A stretch of DNA of 64,000 nucleotides from Paludibacter sp. (lineage in GTDB: Bacteria > Bacteroidota > Bacteroidia > Bacteroidales > Paludibacteraceae), in assembly GCA_031292575.1 (NCBI GenBank), contig JARLGX010000037.1:1-64000 (forward strand), given 5' to 3'. Each line of letters opens with the position of its first letter. The stretch's first letter is position 1. This document shows, piece after piece, positions 44,467-63,953 of the stretch. Below the pieces are notes generated by a model that saw only the letters and a list, made by a program, of their open reading frames with translations, did not search any database and had not been told where the DNA came from. The translations under genes and the position numbers were made by a program.

Positions 44467-46053
44467 ATGAAAAAAATAATTTTTTCTCTCCTTCTTTTCA
44501 TAATTACAACTCCTGCTATTTTTGCTCAAGGGTTCTCTTCATTCCAACAACGTAAACTGACGAATGCACTTACTGCTATTTCAGAATTATATGTTGACAG
44601 TATAAATGACAAAAAAATTGTTGAAAGCACTCTCGAAAACATTCTAAAAGAATTAGATCCTCATTCAGTATATATACCAAAAGAAGAAATTGAACGCGTC
44701 AATGAACCGCTCGAAGGCAGCTTTGAGGGCGTTGGTATTCAGTTTCAATTGATGGAAGATACACTTTTAGTAGTTCAAACCGTATCAGGCTGTCCTGCCG
44801 AAAAGGTAGGCGTTTTGCCGGGCGATCGCATTATTTACATCAATAATGAATTAATTGCAGGTGTAAAAATGCAGAATTCTGATATTTTTAAGCGGCTAAG
44901 AGGTCCGAAAGGCACCGAAGTTACAGTAAAAATTAAGCGTGTAGGCAAAAAAGGGCTGCTCGAATTTAAAATTATCCGTGATAAAATTCCGCTTTACAGT
45001 GTAGATGCAACTTACATGATTGGAAAAGATATTGGATATATTAAAATAAGTAATTTTGGAGCCAATACGGTTCAGGAATTTGAGAAAGCATTAACTATTT
45101 TGCAAAAAAAAGGAATGAAAAAGCTAATTCTTAGCTTGCAAGGTAATGGCGGCGGTTATCTGAATGCTGCCACCGGTATGGCTGATGAATTTCTTCCAGC
45201 TAATAAATTAATTGTTTATACACAAGGACTTAATCAACCAAAATCGATTGAAGAGTCAACTGCAAAAGGTGATTTTGAAACAGGAAAACTAATTGTACTG
45301 GTTGATGAATATTCAGCTTCAGCCAGCGAAATTCTTTCGGGAGCTTTACAAGATTGGGATCGGGCTATTATCGTTGGGCGACGTACATTTGGAAAAGGAT
45401 TGGTTCAACGCCAGTTTCCGTTGATTGATGGTTCTATGTTGCGACTGACGGTTGCCCGGTATTACACTCCTACAGGACGTTGTATTCAAAAATCCTACAA
45501 AGGCGGTTACGACAAATATGAAATGGATATTGTAAATCGTTTCAAAAAAGGAGAACTTTTACATGCCGATAGTATTCATTTTCCAGACTCGCTACGGTAT
45601 CAAACACTTAATCTGAAACGTACAGTTTATGGTGGTGGTGGTATTATGCCCGATATCTTTGTCCCTTTAGATACAACACGCTTTACTGATTTTCACCGAA
45701 AAATTGTTGCAAGCGGCATTGTGAATAAAGTTTGCGTTCAATATATCGATAAAAATCGAGCAGAATTGAAAAAGAGATACCCGTCGTTCGAGAAATTCAA
45801 GAAGGAATATGAAGTGGATGATGAATTTTTAAATCAATTGCTGACTGCCGCAAAAAATGAAAAAATAAAAGTAGACTCAGCTCAATATGCAATTTCAAAG
45901 CCGCTTATTAAGCTTCAATTGAAAGCTTTAGTGGCTCGCGATTTATGGGACATGAATGAGTATTACCAGATAATGGATGTAGATAATGAATCTTTACAAA
46001 AGGCGATTGAGATTTTTGAGACACCTGGAGCTTACGAGAAGATATTAAAATAA
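44467..46053 (+). CDS. C-terminal processing protease (S41, PDZ-containing)
   Basis: A 528-aa periplasmic tail-specific protease that trims or degrades exported proteins from their C-termini. I start at 44467, where MKKIIFSLLLFIITTPAIFA forms a signal peptide; an upstream ATG (44413) would precede the -7 box. A PDZ domain lies at ~85-165 (EGSFEGVGIQFQLMED, ..GVLPGDRIIYIN). The catalytic Ser285 is in EYSASASEIL and the general base Lys310 in TFGKGLVQRQ, 25 residues apart as in E. coli Prc. The C-terminal ~150 residues are a helical extension. It is followed by a hairpin at 46075-46109. Confidence 0.95.
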   Translation: MKKIIFSLLLFIITTPAIFAQGFSSFQQRKLTNALTAISELYVDSINDKKIVESTLENILKELDPHSVYIPKEEIERVNEPLEGSFEGVGIQFQLMEDTLLVVQTVSGCPAEKVGVLPGDRIIYINNELIAGVKMQNSDIFKRLRGPKGTEVTVKIKRVGKKGLLEFKIIRDKIPLYSVDATYMIGKDIGYIKISNFGANTVQEFEKALTILQKKGMKKLILSLQGNGGGYLNAATGMADEFLPANKLIVYTQGLNQPKSIEESTAKGDFETGKLIVLVDEYSASASEILSGALQDWDRAIIVGRRTFGKGLVQRQFPLIDGSMLRLTVARYYTPTGRCIQKSYKGGYDKYEMDIVNRFKKGELLHADSIHFPDSLRYQTLNLKRTVYGGGGIMPDIFVPLDTTRFTDFHRKIVASGIVNKVCVQYIDKNRAELKKRYPSFEKFKKEYEVDDEFLNQLLTAAKNEKIKVDSAQYAISKPLIKLQLKALVARDLWDMNEYYQIMDVDNESLQKAIEIFETPGAYEKILK

Positions 46054-46074
46054 TAGAAGTAATTACGATGCGGT

Positions 46075-46109
46075 CAACTTTTCCTGAGTTTTAAACTTTG
46101 GAAAAGTTG
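46075..46109 (+). terminator. Hairpin terminator after the protease gene
   Basis: CAACTTTTCC and GGAAAAGTTG form a perfect 10-bp stem with a 15-nt loop, followed by a T-containing tail. It lies 22 nt past the stop and 20 nt before pnuC. Confidence 0.65.
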
Positions 46110-46128
46110 TCTGTTTTAAACCCAACCC

Positions 46129-46731
46129 ATGAGTACAATTTTTTCGTACACAATAACTCACTGGATAGAAATTGTTGGAGCTATTCTTAGCCTGATTTAT
46201 TTAGATTTATCCATCAAAGAAAAAGTAAGTTTATGGTTTTTTGGTATTATATCATCGGTATTTTATATCGTAATATTTTTCCAAACGAAGTTTTACGCGG
46301 ACATGAGTTTGCAGTTTTATTACGTTATTATAAGCATTTATGGCTGGATAAACTGGAAACGAGGAGAGCAGGAAAAAGGGAAGGAGTTACCCACAACCCG
46401 CATGTCGAAAAAATTATTTGTGAGCCTCATTATTGCCACCGTTTTAATTTACTTCATTTATTATCTGATATTGAGTAAATTTACCGATTCCACTATTCCC
46501 AAGGCAGATTCGTTGGTTGGTGCGCTAAGCATTGTTGGTACATGGATGTTAGCCCGTAAATTAATCGAAAACTGGTTGGTTTGGATTGTAGCAGATGCAC
46601 TTTGTATCGGACTTTACCTTTACAAAGGACTTTTCCCCACGGCTATTCTCTTCGTGATTTACACTATAATGGCTGTAGTTGGATATTTTCAATGGAAGAA
46701 AACTATGGAAAAGCATACACAACAGAAATAG
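46129..46731 (+). CDS. pnuC: PnuC-type nicotinamide riboside transporter
   Basis: A 200-aa membrane protein of the PnuC family, which moves nicotinamide riboside into the cell by facilitated diffusion, driven by phosphorylation inside. It has seven or so hydrophobic helices. Family features are WIEIVGAILSLIYLDLSIKE at the N-terminus, YADMSLQFYYVIISIYGWINW and WLVWIVADALCIGLYLYKG, with the conserved W, Q/N and aromatic residues that line the substrate site. It precedes a NadR-like kinase by 0.8 kb, which fits nicotinamide riboside rather than thiamine as substrate. Its 3' end faces a convergent PAP2 gene 22 nt away. Confidence 0.88.
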   Translation: MSTIFSYTITHWIEIVGAILSLIYLDLSIKEKVSLWFFGIISSVFYIVIFFQTKFYADMSLQFYYVIISIYGWINWKRGEQEKGKELPTTRMSKKLFVSLIIATVLIYFIYYLILSKFTDSTIPKADSLVGALSIVGTWMLARKLIENWLVWIVADALCIGLYLYKGLFPTAILFVIYTIMAVVGYFQWKKTMEKHTQQK

Positions 46732-46753
46732 AAGAACTATCTCACTTTCTATT

Positions 46754-47398
46754 TTATTGTTTTGTAGGTAGAAGTTCTAATTGACTGATTAACTTTTTAT
46801 TTCCTTCTTTTTTCCAAAACCAATTGTTGATTTTATAGGTTATAAAAGCACTTCCTGCACCAATAATAGCCCCGCCTAAAACATCTGTAGGATAATGCAT
46901 ACCCAAGTTCATACGCGAATATCCCACCGAGCAAGCCCACAAATAGCTCGGAGCAATAACATACCATTTAGGAAATTTCAAACTTAAAGCAGTGGCGGTG
47001 GTAAAAGCTAACGAAGTATGCCCCGATGGGAAAGAAAGCGAGGTTTCAGCTTCATAGGGGTTTATATCATTGGGATAAGTTACATAAGGTCTTGGCCTTC
47101 TTACTATATCTTTTAAACCCAATGTAAGAACGCCATCGACACCAATACTAACACCAACATATAATGCACTTTTCAATAAATCATCATCTTTATTAATCAA
47201 CGCCACAGCACCCATTATTATGGGTACTCCAATGGCTACACCGGTAGTGGTGTTCGAAATAAATTTAGAAGCCCCAATAGTTCCTGTGTTTCTGTTTATA
47301 CTTCTTAGCAGGTCAATATCTGCATTTTGAGCTGATACTTGCGTACTAAAAACAGAAAAAACACTCCAAAGCAGAATAATTGTCGTAAATTTGCGCAT
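46754..47398 (-). CDS. PAP2-family phosphatase
   Basis: A 214-aa membrane phosphatase (phosphatidic acid phosphatase type 2), likely hydrolysing undecaprenyl pyrophosphate or a lipid phosphate at the outer face of the inner membrane. A signal peptide or first helix ends near STQVSAQ. The three signature parts are KDIVRRPRPY, SFPSGHTSLAF and SRMNLGMHYPTDVLGG, giving the catalytic His pair. It is an odd insertion between pnuC and the kinase gene, on the opposite strand. TATCTTTG on the minus strand at 47417-47410 is its likely -7 box. Confidence 0.92.
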   Translation of the reverse strand: MRKFTTIILLWSVFSVFSTQVSAQNADIDLLRSINRNTGTIGASKFISNTTTGVAIGVPIIMGAVALINKDDDLLKSALYVGVSIGVDGVLTLGLKDIVRRPRPYVTYPNDINPYEAETSLSFPSGHTSLAFTTATALSLKFPKWYVIAPSYLWACSVGYSRMNLGMHYPTDVLGGAIIGAGSAFITYKINNWFWKKEGNKKLISQLELLPTKQ

Positions 47399-59018: not shown

Positions 59019-61037
59019 ATGAATTTCAAACTCAATATAATACTGTTTGTTGCTTTACTTTTAAACAGTTGCACAACAAATACAAACATGGCGCCGGTGT
59101 TAACTACAAGCGTGGCAAGCCAGATAACCGTAAACACAGCCATTGTGGGTGGAGAATTAATTACCGATGGAGGAAACAGAATACTTGAACAAGGTATATG
59201 TTGGGATTCAATTGCCAATCCGACAATTGCAAAAAATAAAATTGTAAATTCATCAGGGAAAACCATTTTTTCAGATACAATTAAAGGTTTAAAAGCAAAT
59301 AAGTCCTACAATGTGAGGGCATTTGCAACTAATTTTTTAGGGACATCCTATGGTAAAAATGAAACATTTACCACCCTAAAAACGCCTGTTATAAATGTTC
59401 CATTACTTATTACTAATGTTGTTACGTCAATAAGTAACACAACAGCTCTCTCGGGAGGTTCCATGACTTCCGATGGAGGTTCTCCAATTATTGCCCGGGG
59501 AGTTTGTTGGAGCACAAGCGCTGCACCAACCGTAGCCCTAAGTACCAAAACAACCGACGGCACAGGTTTTGGAAGTTTTACAAGCTCTATTACCGGACTT
59601 TCACCATCAACCACCTATCATGTCAGAGCTTATGCAACCAATGGTCAGGGTACCGGATATGGTCAGGACCAGATATTTACAACTACCCAGACAGTTGTTC
59701 CAACGCTCTCAACCACTACGGTTACTTTTATTGGAACAACTACAGCTGTATCAGGGGGGAATATTTCTTCTGATGGTGGTGCAACAGTTACAGTGCGTGG
59801 CGTTTGCTGGAGCACCAGTTCGGGGGCAACAACTGCTTTAAGTACCAAAACCACTGATGGAACTGGTACAGGCAGCTTTACCAGTAATTTAACCGGACTT
59901 ACCGCATCAACTCTTTATTATGTAAGGGCTTATGCCACAAATTCGCAGGGAACAGCCTATGGAAACGAAGTTACATTTACTACTTCGGCTCTGGTTACAA
60001 CTCCAACAGTTCCTGTTCTTTTTACAAATGCAATCACCTCAATTGGTTCTGCAACTGCCGTTTCGGGTGGAGTTACAACCTCAGATGGCGGCTCAACCAT
60101 AACAGCTCGGGGAATTTGTTGGAGTACTTCTTCAGGTCCTACAGTTTCTCTAAGTACCAAAACATCAGATGGAACCGGACCCGGAACTTTTACCAGTAAC
60201 TTGTCTGGACTTACTGCGTCAACAACTTATTACGTAAGGGCTTATGCCACAAATGCTACCGGTACTGGTTATGGACAGGAATTGTCATTTAGTACAACTG
60301 CTCAAGCAACAATTCCGACGCTGACAACAACTGCAATTTCTGCAATTGCCATCACAACAGCTACATCAGGTGGAAGTATCAGCACAGATGGTGGTTCATC
60401 TGTAACTGCCCGGGGAGTTTGCTGGAGTACAAGCTCAGGAGCTACCGTTGCATTGAGTACCAAAACATCGGATGGCTCCGGTACAGGTAGCTTTACAAGC
60501 AGTATAACCGGACTAACCGGATCGACAGCTTATTATGTTCGGGCTTATGCCACAAACGCTATTGGCACCGCCTATGGAAATGAGTTAACATTCACCACCG
60601 GTGCAGCTTCGGTAAATACAACCGGAACTTTATCCGTTAGTGTTTTAACTGTAGCTCCAGGTGGAGGCTTCCAGCCTAAAAATGTGGTAGCTATCTGGAT
60701 AGAAACGAATGCAGGTGTTTTTGTGAAATCATTATTGGTCTATGCGAATGCCCGTAAGGTTGATTTGACTACGTGGTATCCTAACTCCGGTGGTAGCACT
60801 GTGAATGCCATAACCGGCGCAACCCAGAGCAGTAATGCAACCCGAACTTGTACCTGGGATGGAACCGATGTAAGTGGAGCTGTAGTCCTAGACGGAACTT
60901 ATAAAGTTTGTATGAATATTGCTGACGGTAAAACGGCATTTGCTTCATTTCCATTTGTAAAAGGGCCAACAGCTGTAACTCTAACTCCTGCAAATGTTAC
61001 TGGTTTCTCGAATATTTCGATAAGTTGGGTTCATTAA
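59019..61037 (+). CDS. Lipoprotein with tandem Fn3-like repeats and a C-terminal DUF2271-like domain
   Basis: A 672-aa lipoprotein (MNFKLNIILFVALLLNSC, Cys18). After it come about five tandem units of ~100 aa, each with 'ARGVCWSTSSGPT..LSTKTxDGTGxGxFTSxLxGLT' followed by 'YYVRAYATN..GTxYG', the look of fibronectin type III-like beta-sandwich repeats. The final ~130 residues (APGGGFQPKNVVAIWIETN, GATQSSNAT, CTWDGTDVSG..DGTYKVCMNI) match the DUF2271 pattern as I recall it. DUF2271 proteins are periplasmic and often near PepSY and flavin-transfer genes. The repeats could act as a stalk. The cytochrome gene follows in the same direction at 298 nt. Confidence 0.75.
   Translation: MNFKLNIILFVALLLNSCTTNTNMAPVLTTSVASQITVNTAIVGGELITDGGNRILEQGICWDSIANPTIAKNKIVNSSGKTIFSDTIKGLKANKSYNVRAFATNFLGTSYGKNETFTTLKTPVINVPLLITNVVTSISNTTALSGGSMTSDGGSPIIARGVCWSTSAAPTVALSTKTTDGTGFGSFTSSITGLSPSTTYHVRAYATNGQGTGYGQDQIFTTTQTVVPTLSTTTVTFIGTTTAVSGGNISSDGGATVTVRGVCWSTSSGATTALSTKTTDGTGTGSFTSNLTGLTASTLYYVRAYATNSQGTAYGNEVTFTTSALVTTPTVPVLFTNAITSIGSATAVSGGVTTSDGGSTITARGICWSTSSGPTVSLSTKTSDGTGPGTFTSNLSGLTASTTYYVRAYATNATGTGYGQELSFSTTAQATIPTLTTTAISAIAITTATSGGSISTDGGSSVTARGVCWSTSSGATVALSTKTSDGSGTGSFTSSITGLTGSTAYYVRAYATNAIGTAYGNELTFTTGAASVNTTGTLSVSVLTVAPGGGFQPKNVVAIWIETNAGVFVKSLLVYANARKVDLTTWYPNSGGSTVNAITGATQSSNATRTCTWDGTDVSGAVVLDGTYKVCMNIADGKTAFASFPFVKGPTAVTLTPANVTGFSNISISWVH
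59385..60610 (+). repeat. In-gene tandem repeat of ~300-nt units
   Basis: The stretch encoding 'CWSTS' recurs at about 59508, 59809, 60120 and 60424, so the unit is 300-311 nt. The copies are similar but not identical; a fifth, more divergent copy lies at the N-terminus (~59100-59385). Confidence 0.75.
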
Positions 61038-61335: not shown

Positions 61336-62286
61336 ATGAACTATAAATTAATCTCATTAGTTATAACTTTCTTTCTACTTCAAAGTGTTCAGGTCAAAGC
61401 ATTGAAATCTCCTCATGGCGAAAAATTAAAAAAAGAATGTTCACTCTGCCACGTAACCGAAAACTGGACTAAAATTAAACACGATAGTTTTAACCACAAT
61501 AAAACCAAGTTTCCTTTAAAAGGACAGCACGGTGCAGTTTCTTGTAAAAAATGCCATCCCACGTTGGTTTTTGACAAAGCCCCTCTGGGATGTGTTGCAT
61601 GCCATACCGATATTCACGAAGGCACAGTAGGAAATGATTGTGGACGGTGTCATTCTCAGAACTCTTGGATTGTAAGTAATATCAGGCAAATACACCAGCA
61701 AGCAGGATTTCCATTGATTGGTGAACATGCAGCTGCCGATTGCAACAGATGTCATACCTCGGCTTCATTGCTTCGTTTCAACAATATTCGATCCGATTGT
61801 TATTCTTGCCATCAATATCAATACGAAATGACAATTAACCCAAATCATAAAGCTACCGGTTTAGGAACTGATTGCCAACGCTGCCATAATATGGCAGGTC
61901 AAACCTGGCGATCCATTGGCCACGGGTTCGATCATGGAGTTTTCCCTTTAGTTGGGGCTCATAATATTCAGTGCAGCATTTGTCATTTCAATAATGACTT
62001 TAAAACAAAATTGTCAACCGTCTGCTCCAGTTGTCATGATCCTGGTCCGGCAAATACATCAACACCCGCCCATACTACTAAATTCAAGAGCTTTGCCTGC
62101 TCGGATTGCCATAACACAATCAGCTGGATATCAGTAAAATTCCCGATGCACGAAATTTACGGGAAAATTTACTCGGGAGTACATAATGGGAGATGGTCTG
62201 CTTGTACAGATTGTCATCAAAATACGACTGCTTACACTTCGTATTGTTCAAAATGCCACGATTTCAATAGCGGAAATTTACCTTGA
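61336..62286 (+). CDS. Dodecaheme cytochrome c (12 CxxCH motifs)
   Basis: A 316-aa exported protein (signal peptide ends near QVKA, ~20) with twelve c-type heme sites. The first Cys of each CxxCH is at 35, 70, 86, 102, 136, 155, 180, 213, 230, 255, 290 and 304. Four modules of three hemes repeat, each with a Trp, then a His, then 'FPLxGxH' (weaker in the last module) before the middle heme. Many further His residues could serve as distal ligands, giving low-potential bis-His hemes. It resembles cytochrome c3-type multiheme proteins used in electron transfer across the periplasm. It is followed at once by a beta-barrel gene, as in porin-cytochrome conduits. Confidence 0.93.
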   Translation: MNYKLISLVITFFLLQSVQVKALKSPHGEKLKKECSLCHVTENWTKIKHDSFNHNKTKFPLKGQHGAVSCKKCHPTLVFDKAPLGCVACHTDIHEGTVGNDCGRCHSQNSWIVSNIRQIHQQAGFPLIGEHAAADCNRCHTSASLLRFNNIRSDCYSCHQYQYEMTINPNHKATGLGTDCQRCHNMAGQTWRSIGHGFDHGVFPLVGAHNIQCSICHFNNDFKTKLSTVCSSCHDPGPANTSTPAHTTKFKSFACSDCHNTISWISVKFPMHEIYGKIYSGVHNGRWSACTDCHQNTTAYTSYCSKCHDFNSGNLP

Positions 62287-62297
62287 AAATTATACGA

Positions 62298-63953
62298 ATG
62301 AGTTTTATCAGCAGAAACATTAAAAATATATTCCTTATTTCCTTTATTCTGGTAGGATTTAGTCTGTCTGGACAAAACACCGCTGGCTTTATCAAGGGAA
62401 ATATTAATTTTATCAGTTCACAAAATGTATATGTTCAATTTGTAAATACCGACGGAATTGAAATTGGTGACAGCATTTTCATTTTGAAAAACGATAAATA
62501 TCAACCCATTCTGATTGTAAAAAACAAATCTTCGATTTCGTGTATAGGAACTGTAATTGGCACGAATGTACTTGCCGTATCTAATCAGGTTTATGCCCGG
62601 AAAAGAGTAGAATCAGTTCCAATTGAAGTTGCTGCACAAAAATCGAAAGAAGGAATAGCTCTGAATGACCAGGCAATTAACAGCGCAAAAGCTGAAAAAA
62701 AAGCTACCGGTAACAACTCTTCGTTCAGCGGACGAGTTTCGTTATCGGGCTTTATAAACAACACGAGCGACACGACATTAAACAGCACTTTCCGTTTTAA
62801 TTTATCGCTGAATGCACATCATATTGCCAATTCCAATTTTTCGGCGGAATGCGATCTTTCATTAACCAATAGGAACACTTACAGACCTTTCGTTAACCTA
62901 AGTAGTGTTGATTCGATGAAACTTGTCAATTTCCGTCAGACTTTCAACGATGCCAGAATTTACAACCTCTCGTTGAAATACGATATTAGTAAAACGGCAA
63001 GTGTTCTTTTCGGACGGAAAATAAACCTGAACTTAGCCAATATAGGAGCTATTGATGGGCTTCAGTTTGAAAATACCGGGAAGTTTATCTCATTTGGTGG
63101 CATTGTAGGTTCAAGACCCGATACCTATACGTATGCCATTAACCCCACTTTGTTTCAGTTTGGTGCCTACATAAGCCAACAGCTTACAAATAAGACCGGA
63201 AGCATGCAAACTTCAGTTGCATTTTTCAATCAAACAAATAACATGTTGACCGACCGACGATTTGTTTATATCCAACACAGCAATTCCCTGATAAAAAATA
63301 TTGATTTCTTCGGTTCGGCCGAAGTGGATTTGTTTGGGCTGCAAAACAATCAACCCATCAATACTTTTAACCTGACAAGCGCGTATCTTTCGCTTCGCTG
63401 GAGCGCACGGCATAATCTTTCACTTGCCTTATCGTACGATGCCCGCAAAAATATCTATTACTACGAAACCTATAAAAATTATGTGGACAGCTTGCTTGAT
63501 AAAGAAACCCGACAAGGGTTGAAATTCCAGATCAATTATCAGCCCTTCAGCCGCCTAAGTTGGGGTGGAACTGCCGGTTATCGCTTTGCTACGGCTACTT
63601 CCGATCAATCGTTAAACGGATATACCTACCTTACTTATTCACAGTTACCGCTTATTGATGCCTCGTTCACTATCGATGCCACTGCACTCAAAACAAGTTA
63701 TATGACCGGAGTGATTTACGAAGCTTCGTTATCGCGCGATTTCTTCAACGGTAAATTATTTGCCGAATTATCTTACCAAAAAGTAAATTATACATTCAAA
63801 ACCACTTCCCAATTGTTGGAAAATAATGCTGAAATAAACCTTTCGTGGCGCATTACCCGCAAGTTGATATTTTCAATGGATTTTGAAACGATGAAGGATA
63901 CAAACAGCAACTTACAAGGCCAGCTATTTTTCAATATCACTCAGCGGTTTTAG
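62298..63953 (+). CDS. Predicted outer-membrane beta-barrel protein downstream of the cytochrome
   Basis: 551 aa from the ATG at 62298; a TTG at 62283 would overlap the cytochrome stop by 4 nt and add five residues. The signal peptide is FISRNIKNIFLISFILVGFSLSGQ. Residues ~30-100 look like a small beta domain (NVYVQFVNTDGIEIGDSIFIL), then a Lys/Ala-rich linker, and from ~140 to the end alternating amphipathic strands with many aromatic residues. The last residue is Phe (FFNITQRF), the classic signal for insertion by the BAM machine. No CxxCH or named domain is seen. Its place right after the 12-heme protein suggests it is the porin part of an electron-transfer conduit, but this is inferred. 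Confidence 0.78.
   Translation: MSFISRNIKNIFLISFILVGFSLSGQNTAGFIKGNINFISSQNVYVQFVNTDGIEIGDSIFILKNDKYQPILIVKNKSSISCIGTVIGTNVLAVSNQVYARKRVESVPIEVAAQKSKEGIALNDQAINSAKAEKKATGNNSSFSGRVSLSGFINNTSDTTLNSTFRFNLSLNAHHIANSNFSAECDLSLTNRNTYRPFVNLSSVDSMKLVNFRQTFNDARIYNLSLKYDISKTASVLFGRKINLNLANIGAIDGLQFENTGKFISFGGIVGSRPDTYTYAINPTLFQFGAYISQQLTNKTGSMQTSVAFFNQTNNMLTDRRFVYIQHSNSLIKNIDFFGSAEVDLFGLQNNQPINTFNLTSAYLSLRWSARHNLSLALSYDARKNIYYYETYKNYVDSLLDKETRQGLKFQINYQPFSRLSWGGTAGYRFATATSDQSLNGYTYLTYSQLPLIDASFTIDATALKTSYMTGVIYEASLSRDFFNGKLFAELSYQKVNYTFKTTSQLLENNAEINLSWRITRKLIFSMDFETMKDTNSNLQGQLFFNITQRF

Follow-up and report, generated by a model that had tools for sequence, protein, structure and literature searches.

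The window analysed here is a 64,000-nucleotide stretch of contig C22 of a 3.46-Mb Paludibacter sp. genome. Near its end, a gene for a multiheme c-type cytochrome is followed directly by a gene for an outer-membrane beta-barrel (Table 1). A preliminary description of this DNA had proposed that the two products might form a new porin-cytochrome electron conduit. Its gene calls agree with ours: the cytochrome has exactly 12 CxxCH motifs (24 Cys and 26 His in all) and begins with a signal-like segment, as expected of the exported protein described there, and the barrel gene starts either at ATG 62298 (551 residues, gap of 11 nucleotides) or at TTG 62283 (556 residues, overlap of 4 nucleotides) and ends in ...NITQRF. 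No other open reading frame (ORF) longer than 60 codons in the window contains more than one CxxCH motif.

Table 1 Features of the porin-cytochrome locus; positions are those of the window.
Feature	Position	Strand	Basis
12-heme c-type cytochrome, 316 residues; apparently a short member of the cassette's length-variable slot, four three-heme units by spacing	61336..62286	+	CxxCH count, Pfam, orthologue identity
Outer-membrane beta-barrel, 551 residues, predicted 22 strands, plug domain not seen in model, terminal Phe	62298..63953	+	ORF, AlphaFold2 model, fold matches
Residues 29-103 of the barrel protein: a small, presumably periplasmic beta domain at the N terminus	62382..62606	+	AlphaFold2 strands (moderate to low confidence); kept in homologues
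Exported, lipoprotein-like protein, 672 residues: fn3 repeats and C-terminal DUF2271, TGAT at residue 599; possible redox partner	59019..61037	+	Pfam PF10029

The signal-like segment is the only hydrophobic segment of the 12-heme cytochrome. Two Pfam families, Cytochrome_C7 and Cytochrom_c3_2, exceed their cut-offs, and the sole match of its profile among solved structures was cytochrome c552 5ze8 (E 2.8e-5). The protein is 48-66% identical to seven orthologues. Eleven His outside the CxxCH motifs are invariant in the window cytochrome and seven homologues, which may provide about one distal ligand per heme. Its successive heme spacings (35, 16, 16, 34, 19, 25, 33, 17, 25, 35 and 14) follow a long-short-short pattern.

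The barrel protein was assigned to no family by Pfam or NCBIfam, and searches of solved structures by sequence gave no credible match. In an AlphaFold2 model, built from an alignment of 8 sequences only, 22 strands lie within residues 142-550; the mean predicted local distance difference test (pLDDT) score is 65.2, with blocks of the barrel part mostly at 63-87 and dips to 37-49. The N-terminal domain is modelled with strands at residues 29-39, 44-48, 59-64, 67-77, 81-86 and 97-103. Many barrels matched the model in a fold search, the top Z scores belonging to TonB receptors, which have 22 strands, and OprD-type porins. MtrB was absent from the best 50 matches listed, which is uninformative.

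Among the sampled genomes, 30 of 295 from the order and 38 of 395 from the phylum match the barrel, counting a few marginal matches. At 71 of 75 barrel loci, a cytochrome of at least eight hemes is encoded directly upstream on the same strand, with a gap of less than 40 nucleotides in 66 of the 71. The pairing of barrel and multiheme cytochrome is thus not due to chance; rare co-occurrence, which the preliminary description had set as grounds for dropping its proposal, was not what we found. Three of the remaining four loci lie at contig edges and the fourth (L156; L, G and C label loci, genomes and contigs) has no upstream multiheme cytochrome. The second locus copies L159 and L160 are excluded from these counts and from the inner-membrane protein counts below; G069 (L038) and G107 (L034) are also outside them, and both show a multiheme cytochrome upstream. 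ORF starts are first-start guesses, and some overlaps and lengths are inexact.

The pair belongs to a larger cassette. Its parts are a diheme-b-like inner-membrane protein (IMP), an FAD/2[4Fe-4S] NAD(P)-type oxidoreductase, a 20-heme cytochrome, a length-variable cytochrome and the barrel, in two layouts that place the oxidoreductase either after the IMP or after the barrel; a CcsBA maturation gene is part of several loci. An IMP profile matched 53 of the 395 genomes of the phylum at E <=1e-3 and 40 of them strongly (E <1e-60), and 36 genomes are common to the 38 with a barrel match and the 40 with a strong IMP match. Wherever a locus has both IMP and barrel (60 loci), two or more multiheme cytochromes are encoded between them on one strand; an oxidoreductase was recognised in 58 of these loci.

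In the window genome, contig C3 carries a ResB/CcsA maturation fusion, a 261-residue IMP, a 456-residue oxidoreductase and the 20-heme cytochrome (L007:8780-10378), followed by uvrB on the opposite strand (uvrB by eye). In the close relatives L040, L043 and L044 these inner-half genes continue directly into a 12-heme cytochrome and a barrel, with uvrB beyond (one gene intervenes in L044). The uninterrupted arrangement indicates that the window pair is probably the outer half of the C3 cassette, split from its inner half in the window genome as far as the assembled contigs tell.

The IMP signature, two W-x3-H-x13-H motifs and SGxxG, is strictly present in 59 of 66 IMP frames, and SGxxG in all 66. 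Both the window genome's own IMP and that of Emticicia carry it. The former shows five hydrophobic segments once the hydropathy threshold is reduced from 1.6, the value used for the other proteins, to 1.3; one segment scores 1.48. The IMP, like the barrel, had no credible sequence match among solved structures. Of 64 cytochromes that come first after the IMP, 55 contain exactly 20 hemes, five 23, three 19 and one 14. The oxidoreductase combines Pyr_redox domains, the FAD domain resembling thioredoxin-reductase/YpdA/ferredoxin-NADP-reductase, with a ferredoxin domain for two [4Fe-4S] clusters and a single transmembrane segment at the N terminus. A number of loci (L134, L138, L129, L164 and L178) have a gene of ~190-215 residues with an N-terminal transmembrane segment after the IMP; its TPR repeats in L134 match the CcmH/CycH TPR domain, and its product may help in cytochrome maturation. 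In one relative, a cytochrome b561 gene (Pfam; L039:4286-4849) lies between the 20-heme and 12-heme genes.

From this gene content and linkage, the IMP signature, the heme counts and the wide predicted barrel, we read the window pair as the outer-membrane end of a porin-cytochrome trans-envelope electron conduit, PCC3-like in plan, with a probability of roughly 75%. PCC3 clusters comprise a porin, a variable 'extracellular' cytochrome (median 34 hemes), a periplasmic cytochrome (median 21 hemes) and an IMP of ~300 residues, with a median of 26 residues per heme; the signature reported for the IMPs of PCC3 and PCC4 is SGXXG and two WX3HX13H, and the PCC3 IMP has five transmembrane helices (PMC5566968, He et al. 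2017). The cassette resembles PCC3 in several respects. A porin gene adjoins a multiheme cytochrome gene, both in the window and at nearly all barrel loci; one cytochrome has 20 hemes, compared with ~21 (range 21-27) in PCC3; another varies in length, with 9-64 hemes here and 10-35 in the Gallionellaceae PCC3 (PMC10734462); and the Bacteroidota IMP shares the full signature and, in the window genome at the lowered threshold, the five transmembrane segments. The residues per heme, 26.3 in the 12-heme and 26.6 in the 20-heme protein, and the relative gene order, as the PCC3 text lists it, also agree.

There are also differences. The Bacteroidota cassette adds the oxidoreductase and, in several loci, the CcsBA gene; the hosts listed for PCC3 are Alpha-, Beta- and Gammaproteobacteria, Sideroxydans and Leptothrix among them (PMC5566968); and up to 42 transmembrane regions have been reported for PCC3 porins, compared with the 22 strands modelled here. 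PCC4 differs further, having three periplasmic cytochromes with 4, 5 and 10 hemes where the window genome's cassette has 20 and 12. The cassette thus appears PCC3-like by gene content, heme counts and IMP signature, and we class it as such rather than as PCC3 itself. Of the earlier proposal, the conduit stands, as a reading of the genes, on the pairing at the barrel loci and the cassette at all 60 loci with both IMP and barrel, but the suggestion of a wholly new kind does not, PCC3 being the closest published one.

The barrel-adjacent cytochrome is modular. Its heme count modulo 3, in 69 complete proteins, is 1 in 54, 0 in 15 and 2 in none (p 2.6e-14, a value that counts related sequences as independent), and its heme spacing repeats at each third heme, with a mean correlation of 0.92 at lag 3 (42 proteins). 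We compared the window cytochrome with 67 longer cytochromes, a set that includes some misfiled 20-heme proteins. In 59 of the 67, the N-terminal part of the window cytochrome is best matched within the first third; its C-terminal part matched 63, and 35 of these matches end in the last 15%. Together, the spacing and the terminal matches suggest that the window protein is a short form of an extendable wire that grows in three-heme steps. The longest such wires have 61 hemes in 1518 residues (L163, G618) and 64 hemes in 1661 residues (L129, G513).

Which of the two cytochromes enters the barrel is a closer question. The 20-heme protein may do so, with the 12-heme protein outside, like the presumed 'extracellular' cytochrome of PCC3, whose slot in the cassette it occupies; a near-fixed 20-heme length would be expected of a piece that spans a fixed distance, and a range of 9-64 hemes of a piece that protrudes. 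We take this arrangement seriously, at somewhat short of even odds. The same lengths would also suit a 20-heme piece spanning the periplasm and a variable piece reaching across an open-ended span. Against an external position, the 12-heme protein has an N-terminal signal segment, and a type IX sorting tail is not among its Pfam matches. Where two complete variable cytochromes precede the barrel, moreover, the barrel-adjacent one is the shorter in seven of eight loci by eye (L047, L054, L055, L134, L138, L139 and L140, with 9-16 hemes; the L055 sequence is partly masked), which suits a short wire within the barrel; L058 shows the opposite, 19 then 31.

In the PCC3-like conduit that we prefer, electrons would pass from cytosolic NAD(P)H or ferredoxin to the membrane-anchored FAD/2[4Fe-4S] oxidoreductase, and from there to the five-helix diheme-b-like IMP. 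The IMP would reduce the 20-heme periplasmic wire, which would in turn hand electrons to the 12-heme wire, positioned inside or at the 22-strand barrel, and this to an acceptor outside, perhaps via the neighbouring DUF2271 protein. We infer electron transfer, its outward direction, the docking of the cytochrome in the barrel and the flavinylation of the DUF2271 protein. We favour outward flow, as an electron sink, because the cytosolic end has an NAD(P)-type oxidoreductase and because a distant relative of the IMP also lies beside a reductase-like gene: on a plasmid of Methylophaga pinxianii, the gene for this relative (22.6% identity) is flanked by those for a reductase-like 2Fe-2S protein and a 7-heme cytochrome, and the stretch viewed around it has no annotated porin.

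The same conduit might instead run inwards, with Fe(II), a partner cell or an electrode as the electron source. For proteobacteria, PCC3 has been put forward as a candidate system for oxidising Fe(II) (PMC5566968), and related conduits may be reversible (PMC10734462). The FAD/2[4Fe-4S] NAD(P)-type oxidoreductase at the cytosolic end speaks against this direction. Fe(II) cannot reduce NAD(P)+ without energy input, and Paludibacter, after which the relatives are also named, is a fermentative genus. We consider inward flow unlikely.

A different view would make the cytochromes a periplasmic electron store, or the feed of a periplasmic reductase, and the barrel an ordinary porin for solute entry. 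The Cytochrome_C7/c3 domains of the 12-heme protein fit, as these families have many soluble periplasmic members. No reductase gene is recognised in the cassette, however, NrfA has no match in the window genome, and the adjacency of barrel and cytochrome is kept in many families with the short gaps given above. This explanation, too, seems improbable.

The gene upstream of the pair encodes the genome's only DUF2271 match (Pfam PF10029, 32.5 bits vs a cut-off of 27.3). ApbE was shown to flavinylate one DUF2271 protein at an [S/T]GA[S/T] motif (PMC8238504). The motif occurs here as TGAT inside the domain, where ~0.012 would be expected by chance, and as two SGAT outside it. The locus thus resembles the flavinylated PepSY/ApbE/DUF2271 systems of that study in having DUF2271 with its motif and one ApbE in the genome, but differs in that DUF2271 adjoins a porin-cytochrome pair and ApbE is not adjacent to either. 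The single ApbE match (C3:41162-41992) has unrelated neighbours (by eye), is separated from the cassette's inner half by ~17 kb and may serve other flavoproteins. Five relatives likewise have DUF2271-like genes close to the cassette. The motif is present in six of the seven encoded proteins, and among six scanned with Pfam, four, from three genomes, score above the cut-off for a type IX sorting tail. Within the order, 13 of 30 barrel genomes and 43 of 265 others have DUF2271 (Fisher p 0.001, which ignores genome size and relatedness). The motif and these neighbouring genes make it plausible that the DUF2271 protein is a flavoprotein redox partner of the conduit, if it is indeed flavinylated; the anchoring and exposure of the window protein are uncertain. 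More tentatively, and with some doubt, we suggest a distinct Bacteroidota conduit that would lead from cytosolic NAD(P)H or ferredoxin through a near-fixed 20-heme wire and a modular wire with three-heme steps to, in some lineages, a flavinylated DUF2271 protein (type IX-tailed in some relatives) that replaces a surface cytochrome.

Several observations weigh against the conduit or its parts, in addition to the small alignment and modest pLDDT (65) of the barrel model and the relatedness behind both p values. In the window genome the cassette halves lie on separate contigs (C22 and C3), the AlphaFold2 model of the 12-heme cytochrome is unusable (pLDDT 39.7) and gives no basis for judging its fit in the pore, and no surface cytochrome was seen near the pair among the window frames or on the contig to position 80000. 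The preliminary description had pointed past 64000 for a surface cytochrome or ApbE gene; up to position 80000 there is neither, and the pair is followed by a TPR protein gene and then one resembling an endonuclease/exonuclease/phosphatase protein (the latter by eye). None of the three other sampled genomes of the window genome's family has the barrel. Four of the 40 strong-IMP genomes (G513, G582, G651 and G670) lack a barrel match: two have a partial match at a stretch or contig end (L129, L130), one contig ends earlier (L131), and L132 has an unmatched 605-residue ORF instead. Conversely, two of the 38 barrel genomes lack a strong IMP; the match in G573 is probably false, nothing of the cassette being present at L148, and in G510 (L147) it is on a 4.2-kb contig bearing multiheme ORFs. 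In 15 of the 75 barrel loci no IMP is seen in the same stretch. The window genome is one of them; others are contigs or stretches that are cut, and the 15 also include G586 (IMP ~22 kb away) and L133 (IMP matched by the profile and missed by ORF picking). Seven of the 66 IMP frames miss the strict double motif: six keep two H-x13-H and SGxxG with one full motif, and one is truncated. In one genome (G434:C56 ~46016-47135, L145), IMP residues 1-216 are followed directly by barrel residues 407-534, and this cassette seems to have lost its middle. As for DUF2271, one of the seven neighbouring proteins has no motif, the L149 gene is ~4 kb beyond the IMP gene, and of six proteins scanned against Pfam two were above the cut-off, two below it and two not listed, the last recovered by a purpose-built profile. 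Finally, the model system itself would seem to be without proven function, because both PCC3 clusters of Sideroxydans ES-1 are reported as less expressed during growth on Fe(II) than on thiosulfate (PMC8788666).

The better known conduits are less similar. As in MtrAB, MtoAB and PioAB, the window pair has the genes for a multiheme cytochrome and an outer-membrane barrel side by side. MtrB-type barrels have 26 strands, not the 22 modelled here. As the preliminary description had judged, the proteins are unlike MtrA and MtrB: MtrB_PioB (PF11854) did not match the barrel at E <=1, nor did it appear in the matches of 19 homologues at E <=0.1, and the 12-heme protein had no match to NCBIfam DmsE/MtrA at E <=1. 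The 20-heme protein scores 41.9 vs a DmsE cut-off of 192.2. MtrB_PioB had no match in the window genome, nor any above cut-off in the control genomes, hence this search had no positive control. We rejected MtrB/PioB, MtrA/DmsE and NrfA identities, as none of these families matched above its cut-off. The Geobacter Pcc clusters (OmbB-OmaB-OmcB) likewise unite a porin and cytochromes, but their cytochromes have 8 hemes (periplasmic) and 12 hemes (outer membrane), in contrast to the 20-heme and variable cytochromes here; a Pcc-type cluster has been reported in Ignavibacterium (PMC4245776).

Bacteroidales and their relatives are seldom counted as electroactive, and such conduits are hardly described in the group. 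They are common in anoxic sediments and digesters. In the main texts of an openly licensed collection of papers we found no description of PCC3 or of this cassette in Bacteroidota. An uncharacterised Bacteroidetes cluster of six multiheme cytochromes and a barrel is mentioned in PMC8258643 and could be related, although it is not clearly the same. The porin models of one survey were built from MtrB, OmbB, ExtB/ExtE and ExtI (PMC7399161). The 20-heme cytochromes, nearly fixed in length, and those that grow by three hemes at a time form a natural series in which the construction and extension of heme wires could be studied. With a recognisable cassette, a barrel in roughly one sampled genome in ten and a cultured strain, the question is testable. 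In that strain, Emticicia oligotrophica DSM 17448, plasmid pEMTOL02 bears the cassette, whose cytochromes have 23 and 40 hemes. Emticicia was the only match when plasmids were searched with the barrel by tblastn and, among 40 listed of 47 records matching the 20-heme protein, the only one to cover more than 80% of the query; the other listed matches cover about half of it, and many adjoin DUF1622 genes.

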